Shown: positions 24,061-26,603 of the stretch, piece by piece
Position numbering within the stretch: position 1 is the first letter of the stretch
How the letters are laid out: each line of letters opens with the position of its first letter
Source: Oceanospirillaceae bacterium ASP10-02a
GTDB taxonomy: Bacteria > Pseudomonadota > Gammaproteobacteria > Pseudomonadales > Balneatricaceae
Length of the DNA stretch: 64,000 nucleotides
Reading direction: 5' to 3'
Assembly: GCA_905182035.1 (NCBI GenBank)
Contig: CAJIZL010000006.1
Coordinates: 62,001 to 126,000, forward strand
Made by a program: the position numbers and the translations under genes
Notes under the pieces: generated by a model
Told to the model about the DNA's origin: nothing
Database searches by the model: none
What the model saw: only the letters and a program-made list of their open reading frames with translations

Positions 24061-24474
24061 GTGATCAATAAACGTGTGGAAGTGGTAGCAGCCATTTTAG
24101 TTGATTCTCAACAGCGTATTCTTATGGCGCAGCGGGCTGATTGGCAACACCAAGGTGGCAAGTGGGAATTCCCTGGCGGTAAAATAGAAACTCACGAAAC
24201 TCATATGCAAGCTTTAGCTCGTGAGATCCAAGAAGAGGTTGATTTAAAGATTAATCAGCAGACTTGTGAGCTTTTTAAGGCCGTACATCACGACTATAAT
24301 GATAAACAGGTGTCCTTGTATTTTTATCTAGTTAAAGACTTTTCTGGTAGTGCCAAAGGTATGGAAGGCCAACCCGTAATGTGGGTAGACGCTCAGACAT
24401 TACCGCAAATGACTATTCCTGATGCCAATAAAGCTATTGCAGATGCGCTGCTTCAAACTTGGCCTGTTAGCTAG
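24061..24474 (+). CDS. mutT: 8-oxo-dGTP diphosphatase MutT
   Basis: Small Nudix hydrolase (137 residues) that removes oxidised dGTP from the nucleotide pool. The Nudix box begins GGKIETHE, followed by ALAREIQEEVDL, and fits GX5EX7REUXEE with Asp in place of the final Gly. WEFPGGK and ILMAQR further match MutT. The start is GTG. Its last codons overlap the convergent MFS gene by four bases inside a 16-base inverted repeat. Confidence 0.9.
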   Translation: MINKRVEVVAAILVDSQQRILMAQRADWQHQGGKWEFPGGKIETHETHMQALAREIQEEVDLKINQQTCELFKAVHHDYNDKQVSLYFYLVKDFSGSAKGMEGQPVMWVDAQTLPQMTIPDANKAIADALLQTWPVS

Positions 24475-24489
24475 GCCAAGTTTGAAGCA
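24449..24489. terminator. Long inverted repeat at the mutT/MFS convergence, probable bidirectional terminator
   Basis: TGCTTCAAACTTGGCC (24449-24464) pairs perfectly with GGCCAAGTTTGAAGCA (24474-24489) around a nine-base loop that holds the overlapping stop codons. The repeat encodes the C-termini of both genes. No long T-run follows on either strand, so intrinsic termination is inferred from position and stability rather than from a full signature. Confidence 0.6.
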
Positions 24490-26603
24490 AGGTTAGATTC
24501 AGCATCCAACAACACCTCTTGAAGTAACTCCTCCGCCTGTTCTGGCAGTGAACTAGCAACAGCATACATTACGTCATCGGCCATTCCCGGTGCCACTTCG
24601 CTGATACTGCCCACCAAAGCTGAGGCATGCTCAGGGTCTGTTTGAGCGATGGACTCTGCCACTTGAGCGGCTTCTTCTGGCAGTATTCCAGCTACCGCGG
24701 TGGCGATGTCAAAGGCTTGTTCCGGTGCTTCCTGTACTAGCGCAATAGCAAGCTCAGCACCTTCGCCTAAATAGTTGCCATCTTCTTCTGCAGCTAAGAA
24801 GGTATGTAATTCTTCATCTGGGCTTGCAGCTATAGTTTCAGCCACCCCTGCCGCAACTTCTATGCTTGCCTCTGGTACCTCTTGTGTAACAGCTGTTGCA
24901 ACCTCTACCCGTTGATCTGGGGCAGCTTTTGCTGCTAAGACCGCGATCCGAGCCACTAGTTCTGGCATATCATCAGCGATTTCGTGGCTTACGATGGCTG
25001 CAATTTCTGCTGCCTGCTGTGGTGCCTCATTTAGCAGCCTTAGAGTAAGGCGGCTAAGGGCATGGAAGCTAGCCTCGGGCTTGAGCTTTTGTTGTTTGAT
25101 TAAGTCACACATATAGCGGGCTAAGGCTGCACCAGACAGTGGGGCGGAGCCAGCTACATTGGTAATAATGTCGAGCTTCAAGTGCGGCAGTTCATTGGCC
25201 AAGGCAATAGCTAAGGCTTCTGCTTGATCTGGGTAATGGTAGGCTGTGGCCTGAGCAATGTTTACCGCTTCTTCTGGCTGGTTAAGGGCTACGCTTACAG
25301 CAATTTCCACCACATCTTCTGGATTTTCTTCTGCTAATAAAAGTACCGTCTCTGCAGCCACACTGGTTTCATCGAGGCTGTTATATTCTGTACGGGGGTC
25401 AAGCTCGGTGGCCATCGGTGTCATGCCTTGTACCACGAACGACTCTTGCAGTGCATCGGGCACGGCTGAACGAATGCTCATGCGGTACATGACAAAGGCG
25501 ACTAACACTAAACTAGCTACAATCAAGTACCCAAACAGGGCATCTGCTCCCATTTGTTTCATTACTAACGAAGACGTATAGGGGCCTATGGCGCCACCTG
25601 CTGCATAAGCCAAAATGAGTTTGCCACTGGCAGCTACCATTTCTGTGGGTTTAAGTCGGTCAAAGGCATCTGCTAAGGCGATGGGGTATACGCAAGCCAA
25701 GGCACCGCTAAGAATGACGGCGCAAGCAATAGTAATGGCCATTTCTCCCCGTGCGGCCATAATCGGCAATACCATGGCAGCCAAACAGGCAACTAGCAAG
25801 GTCATTACTAATACTGTACGACGGTCAAACAGATCGGCCAGCTTACCTATGGGGAACTGTAATAAGAACCCGCCAACCATGGTGGCACTCATAAAGGTAG
25901 CGATTTGACTTTTAGTCATGCCCACATCGGCACCGTAAACACTACTCATATTGTACAAAGCGCCTAAACAAATGCCAGAAATCATGATACCTACGACACC
26001 CAAGGGTGAAGTACGGTAAAGGATCTTTAATGGCATGGCTTCCGGTTCATTTATTCGTGGCCCACCAGACCGACTCATGAGTACTGGAATCATGCATAAA
26101 CAAAACAGCATGGCTACGTAGATATAGAGGATAGGGTCTTGTGGCTCGGCAAAATTAAGCATGAGCTGGCCTAGGGCCAATCCAAAATAGGTGACGAACT
26201 GATAGCTACCAAACACTGTGGCACGGTTTTCACTAGTAGAGCTCTCGCTCAACCATGTTTCCATAGTCATAAAAAAGGTGGCATTAGTAAAGCCAATCAA
26301 TACCCGCAACACACCCCACACAAGAGGCACGGACCAAATGCTGTGCAACAAAGCACACATGGTGGCGACGGAAGCACAGGCGGCAAAAATACGAATATGA
26401 CCCACACGGCTTATAAGGTGTCTGCCGTATAAAGAACCTAATAACATACCTACAAAATAAAGCGACATAACTAGGCCAATGGCGTCCGTATCTTGGCCAT
26501 CTAGCCGCATGCTCATAGGGATAATAATAAACAGCAAACCATTGCCCATAAGCAAAAGCGTACAGCTTAAGTATAAAGGTAGAAGTTGATTCAGTGCTCT
26601 CAC
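24471..26603 (-). CDS. MFS transporter (YcaD-like) with C-terminal 15-residue repeat domain
   Basis: Residues 1-380 form a 12-helix major facilitator with the loop-2/3 type motif GRHLISRVGHIR near 60 and GKLADLFDRRTV near 253. An early METWLSE segment in the fourth-to-fifth helix region resembles the YcaD/sugar-efflux branch. The substrate is unknown. The unusual part is the hydrophilic, Ala/Glu-rich C-terminus (about 405-710), which carries around 14 repeats of the form xPEQAxxIAxAVAxx (separate entry). Most family members stop near 400 residues. The tail should be cytoplasmic. The gene converges on mutT with a four-base overlap and stands alone. Confidence 0.85.
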   Translation of the reverse strand: MRALNQLLPLYLSCTLLLMGNGLLFIIIPMSMRLDGQDTDAIGLVMSLYFVGMLLGSLYGRHLISRVGHIRIFAACASVATMCALLHSIWSVPLVWGVLRVLIGFTNATFFMTMETWLSESSTSENRATVFGSYQFVTYFGLALGQLMLNFAEPQDPILYIYVAMLFCLCMIPVLMSRSGGPRINEPEAMPLKILYRTSPLGVVGIMISGICLGALYNMSSVYGADVGMTKSQIATFMSATMVGGFLLQFPIGKLADLFDRRTVLVMTLLVACLAAMVLPIMAARGEMAITIACAVILSGALACVYPIALADAFDRLKPTEMVAASGKLILAYAAGGAIGPYTSSLVMKQMGADALFGYLIVASLVLVAFVMYRMSIRSAVPDALQESFVVQGMTPMATELDPRTEYNSLDETSVAAETVLLLAEENPEDVVEIAVSVALNQPEEAVNIAQATAYHYPDQAEALAIALANELPHLKLDIITNVAGSAPLSGAALARYMCDLIKQQKLKPEASFHALSRLTLRLLNEAPQQAAEIAAIVSHEIADDMPELVARIAVLAAKAAPDQRVEVATAVTQEVPEASIEVAAGVAETIAASPDEELHTFLAAEEDGNYLGEGAELAIALVQEAPEQAFDIATAVAGILPEEAAQVAESIAQTDPEHASALVGSISEVAPGMADDVMYAVASSLPEQAEELLQEVLLDAESNLASNLA
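24519..25340 (-). repeat. 15-residue protein repeat array in the MFS tail
   Basis: Prolines mark the repeats at residues 428, 443, 458, 473 and 488, at 547, 562 and 577, and at 627, 642, 657, 672 and 687, exactly 15 apart within each block. The consensus is roughly P-E-x-A-x-x-I-A-x-A-V-A-x-x-x. Each unit could be one helix and a turn, stacking as a solenoid. The DNA itself is not an exact tandem repeat, so the array is old and selected at protein level. Confidence 0.8.

Follow-up and report, generated by a model that had tools for sequence, protein, structure and literature searches.

The locus described here raises the question of what a long and strictly periodic C-terminal tail might do on a bacterial transporter of the major facilitator superfamily (MFS). 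The gene lies in a window of 64,000 nucleotides from Oceanospirillaceae bacterium ASP10-02a, which is the whole stretch of DNA that was analysed. The sequence-only reading of this DNA had held that large soluble tails are rare among MFS proteins, a statement that needs softening: MFS cores fused to CBS, cyclic-nucleotide-binding, PAS or UspA domains have been described, several of these soluble-domain fusions being still experimentally uncharacterised (PMC10710835), and in ProP, an MFS osmolyte symporter of E. coli, the cytosolic C-terminal domain tunes transport (PMC10710835, PMC4047261).

A YcaD-like MFS core with a C-terminal extension

The open reading frame is complete, and orthologous open frames are present in genomes of the same genus. 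The protein can be divided as follows:

24471..26603, minus strand: complete open reading frame with a GTG start, 710 amino acids, encoding the MFS transporter and its tail
25473..26603, minus strand: MFS core of 12 transmembrane helices (residues 1-377), with an MFS_1 match at residues 11-341 and the YcaD-type PRK03633 as nearest curated model
25371..25472, minus strand: linker of about 35 residues (378-411), predicted to be disordered (pLDDT 30-40)
24828..25370, minus strand: predicted solenoid block 1 (residues ~412-592), about 11 helices in units of ~15 residues in the models
24765..24827, minus strand: acidic low-confidence loop (residues 593-613, pLDDT about 46-66) that joins the two solenoid blocks
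24474..24764, minus strand: predicted solenoid block 2 (residues 614-710), 6 helices in the models and five in-phase prolines (627-687)

A convergent MutT-like gene (24061-24474, plus strand) overlaps the MFS gene at the stop codons, at window positions 24471-24474.

The MFS_1 family of Pfam (PF07690) matches the core with an E-value of 1.2e-40 and 139.9 bits, against a gathering score of 33.4. Membership is also supported by the fold, with 12 transmembrane helices in the model and NorA and VMAT as the closest PDB folds (E ~1e-9 to 1e-8); just MFS folds were among the matches listed in the fold search with the full-length model. With regard to the subfamily, the core aligns with the YcaD-type model (NCBIfam NF002962 / PRK03633) over residues 12-373 (E 5.9e-45), but the score of 154 bits falls short of the cut-off of 361, so that the protein is not an equivalog, and the tail lies outside the 382 positions of that model. 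Two further related MFS proteins are encoded in the same genome, both without such a tail, and none of the plasmid-borne MFS relatives covers at least 80% of the 710-residue protein.

The tail is built on a 15-residue period

The tail comprises residues 413-710, 298 residues in all. Its fusion to the transporter, as first proposed, stands, with the correction that the core ends near residue 377 and not 400; the interval originally assigned to it (24519-25340, minus strand) corresponds to residues ~422-695. The 13 prolines from which the repeat had been recognised are all found at the residues given for them (428, 443, 458, 473 and 488; 547, 562 and 577; 627, 642, 657, 672 and 687). Ten pairs of prolines in the tail are 15 residues apart, where 20,000 shuffles gave 0.77 such pairs on average and never more than 5, and the self-identity of the tail at lags 15 and 30 exceeds that of shuffled sequences by ~4 SD, with side peaks at lags 11 and 19, as helices would give. 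The consensus of the in-phase unit is P-E-x-A-x-[ED]-[IVL]-A-x-A-V-A.

At the DNA level, TRF detected no tandem array in the window and a DNA repeat search returned one 29-nt pair only, at 72%, which points to a repeat that is old at this level. A recent tandem DNA duplication was rejected, as no tandem array is present in the window or in the homologous loci L021 and L109. A short conserved motif, roughly EW(M/V/I)xSxDxKP, ends the MFS proteins of L064, L021 and L109 and is absent from the window protein; in several relatives it is a possible second binding motif.

A predicted cytosolic solenoid of single-helix units

In the AlphaFold2 model of the full-length protein, built on 33 homologues, the tail folds into 17-18 helices, one helix of ~14 residues per unit with a break every 15 residues, and pLDDT is mostly 80-95. 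The helices span residues 415-426, 428-441, 443-456, 458-471, 473-486, 488-504, 509-526, 528-543, 547-560, 562-575 and 577-592 and, past a weak loop, 614-625, 627-640, 642-655, 657-670, 672-685 and 690-709. A separate run with the tail only gives the same helices (pTM 0.76), the alignments behind both models holding 21-33 sequences only. The orientation of the arm relative to the core is not resolved by the full-length model, the pTM of which is 0.55. Since 12-13 of the modelled helices begin at an in-phase proline and the others are degenerate, the earlier estimate of about 14 units is reasonable.

An even number of transmembrane helices puts a C-terminal tail on the cytoplasmic side, which is the norm for MFS proteins. 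The tail would thus be cytoplasmic because 12 transmembrane helices are predicted and the topology of MFS proteins is standard. A cytoplasmic helical solenoid had been suggested from the sequence, and at the level of prediction the two structure runs and the helix count bear this out: the tail is predicted to be a cytosolic alpha-solenoid of single-helix 15-residue repeats, with about 17 helices.

The tail matches no named family

That the tail belongs to no named family holds across the Pfam, NCBIfam, PDB-sequence and fold searches. No model of Pfam or NCBIfam scores above cut-off for the tail, a PDB sequence search returned no significant match, and the tail was not found described in literature searches. 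Against PDB folds, the best match of the tail-only model was a designed protein with an E-value of 0.012 and TM scores were at most about 0.35, which is not significant; nothing significant was found among viral structures either. INTS1_R4 and similar Pfam matches fall below cut-off and were taken as composition matches, and the PDB profile matches to FliG and RNA polymerase subunit F (E 0.15 and worse) as chance.

As in TPR, HEAT and other alpha-solenoids, short repeated helices pack side by side in the models; the tail differs from these in having a single helix in each unit and a strict period of 15 residues, and 16 tails scanned against Pfam gave no TPR, HEAT or other named alpha-repeat family above cut-off. 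The best-looking lead by eye was the N-terminal domain of MgtE (PF03448), the structure of which is a superhelix of short helices and which likewise places a cytosolic superhelix on a transporter. This candidate was rejected, as hhalign gave a probability of 0.7% against the MgtE_N domains of the same genus and order and Pfam reports no MgtE_N match to the tail. The MFS fusions with CBS, cyclic-nucleotide, PAS or UspA domains likewise have a soluble module attached to the MFS core, but their modules belong to named families, none of which the tail matches.

A conserved linker behind the core

The best-conserved non-membrane part of the protein is a motif in the linker, (L/V)PxxxQExFVxQ...ELDPRTEY. 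By column conservation across 51 tailed homologues, Q386, E387 and P403 are invariant, V390, D402 and R404 reach 98%, and mean conservation is 0.65 for the linker and 0.86 for residues 400-407, against 0.61 for the membrane core. The full QExFV...LDPR motif is retained in the tail-less proteins of Thalassotalea ND16A and of genome G029, the tail-less protein of Neptuniibacter caesariensis keeps its first half only, and DPR is present too in some Acidiferrobacteraceae relatives. Since tail-less relatives keep the motif, we infer that it works together with the MFS core itself, the solenoid being an add-on that extends the protein behind it.

Distribution, evolution and selection

The tail is present in 13 of the 14 other genomes of the genus. 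With the window tail alone as query, other genera were reached at E-values of 1e-8 to 1e-4, and outside the genus every frame read at these matches encodes an MFS protein with a tail. Relatives with a genus name come from, among others, Neptunomonas, Amphritea, Oceanospirillum, Motiliproteus, Marinobacterium, Pontibacterium, Marinomonas, Neptuniibacter, Osedax symbionts, Colwellia and Vibrio, and tails are present in Neptunomonas, Amphritea, Oceanospirillum, Marinobacterium, Motiliproteus, Marinomonas, Colwellia, Vibrio and others. The tail is widespread in Oceanospirillaceae-type bacteria and occurs also in Vibrio, Colwellia and Marinomonas. Homologues range from 500 (Colwellia) to 982 amino acids, which corresponds to tails of ~100 to ~600 residues.

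When the presence of the tail is mapped on a tree built from the MFS part, it costs four changes over 83 rows, compared with a mean of 23.8 after shuffling. As one of the four, in L099, is merely a contig end, the history is most simply read as a single gain at the base of the clade, the tail having later been lost in Thalassotalea ND16A and in the branch of Neptuniibacter caesariensis and G029, with the direction of gain and loss hanging on a root placed at the midpoint. No solenoid tail is found in the alphaproteobacterial and Acidiferrobacteraceae relatives of the outgroup. In the least saturated pairs, dN/dS is 0.046-0.069 for the tail versus 0.014-0.027 for the MFS core, and by this measure the tail is under strong purifying selection.

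The repeat outside MFS proteins

The window tail as such was not found standing alone, without an MFS core. The same 15-residue unit does occur in short signal-peptide-like proteins (L050/L051, L140, L141, L142-L144, L168, L170, L171 and L173), which show that a repeat of this kind can exist as an independent protein. The repeats are simple and alanine-rich, and the resemblance of these proteins to the MFS tails may be either homologous or convergent. A conserved signal-peptide-like family of ~260 amino acids (FLKRQVDQNMSVGRAI...) with nine 15-residue units is encoded at L142:370-1152, L143:1111-1932, L144 (minus strand), L168 and L170; the two members scanned gave no Pfam match above cut-off. 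The small alanine-rich proteins of L050, L051, L171 and L173 adjoin, judging by eye, an outer-membrane beta-barrel-like protein, together with an O-antigen-ligase-like protein in L050/L051 and a WecA-like transferase in L173. They may be secreted helical-repeat proteins that belong to exopolysaccharide loci.

What the tail may do

The reading favoured here, to which we give a probability of roughly one half, is that a YcaD-like MFS transporter carries a solenoid arm in the cytosol, which serves docking or regulation and is coupled to it via the linker. The arm would hang off TM12 on the flexible linker with its QExFV...LDPRTEY motif and offer a cytosolic protein a surface for docking and regulation, the linker motif would touch the MFS core on its inner side, and occupancy or conformation of the arm would alter or localise transport. 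Against this reading, no neighbouring gene is shared across the family, and the wide variation in repeat number (tails of ~100 to ~600 residues) counts against one fixed binding geometry. More tentatively, the arm may be seen as a length-variable regulatory solenoid module, not described before. Via the conserved QExFV/LDPR linker, predicted to be disordered, it would tether a cytosolic protein to this clade of marine MFS transporters or gate the transporters, and the repeat type would also have emerged in the form of secreted proteins, some of them next to polysaccharide-export-like genes.

Among the alternatives to the docking arm, the main rival, itself rather unlikely, is a sensor of osmotic or ionic strength, in which packing or membrane contact of the acidic arm would shift with cytoplasmic salt and gate the transporter. 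The charge of the tail is in keeping with this: residues 413-710 hold 51 D/E and 10 K/R (net about -41), every homologue checked has an acidic tail (net -10 to -88), and the hosts appear mostly marine, judged by record names. A functional parallel exists with the C-terminal domains of ProP (MFS) and BetP (BCCT); like the protein studied here, ProP joins an MFS core to a cytosolic C-terminal domain, which controls the transporter (PMC10710835), but its extension is a coiled coil, whereas the window tail is 298 residues of ~14-residue helices with no long helix, and no ProP-type coiled coil is predicted.

The gene neighbourhood speaks on both sides of the sensor. In its favour, a BCCT-family transporter of osmolyte type is encoded no more than ~6 kb away in 12 loci of the MFS clade, which has ~60 members; these loci come from several lineages, and about one would be expected by chance from the 0-13 BCCT genes per related genome. 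Against the sensor, the window genome and another member of the genus keep the tailed MFS and have no BCCT gene, two BCCT-linked MFS proteins are devoid of a tail, and in Thalassotalea and Colwellia the BCCT gene stands beside genes for aldehyde dehydrogenase, Fe-alcohol dehydrogenase, dipeptidase or RidA, a setting of catabolism and not of osmoprotection. The BCCT link thus does not define the family, although it hints at quaternary amines or DMSP-like compounds as the substrate class in part of the clade. In a Colwellia locus (L114:1381-5858), the genes that precede the one for the tailed MFS protein encode a BCCT transporter, an iron alcohol dehydrogenase and a methylmalonate-semialdehyde-type dehydrogenase, an arrangement reminiscent of a ddd cluster for DMSP catabolism. 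DMSP catabolism or an osmolyte operon as a general role was rejected, the window genome having no BCCT gene and its tailed MFS other genes as neighbours.

Less probable still is a device for oligomerisation or clustering, by which neighbouring arms would pack and organise membrane patches. A long, alanine-rich helical solenoid would suit such packing, and the weak fold neighbours include several designed self-assembling repeat proteins, but those matches are the non-significant ones described above, and strong uniform negative charge works against tail-tail packing at low salt. The least probable of these readings is that the tail has no specific function and is a neutral, alanine-rich appendage of a kind that arises easily. 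Although its length varies, some members have lost it and unrelated secreted-looking proteins carry similar 15-residue repeats, the dN/dS values already disfavour this reading, and the tail is retained across many genera with a regular structure that is confident in two runs.

Implications

Appended soluble domains can control bacterial transporters, and the tail described here is absent from Pfam and NCBIfam. The conserved linker motif offers a precise target for mutagenesis, and the natural tail-less relatives make the role of the tail directly testable. Many marine gammaproteobacteria have retained the tail, among them culturable Vibrio, Marinomonas, Amphritea and Colwellia.
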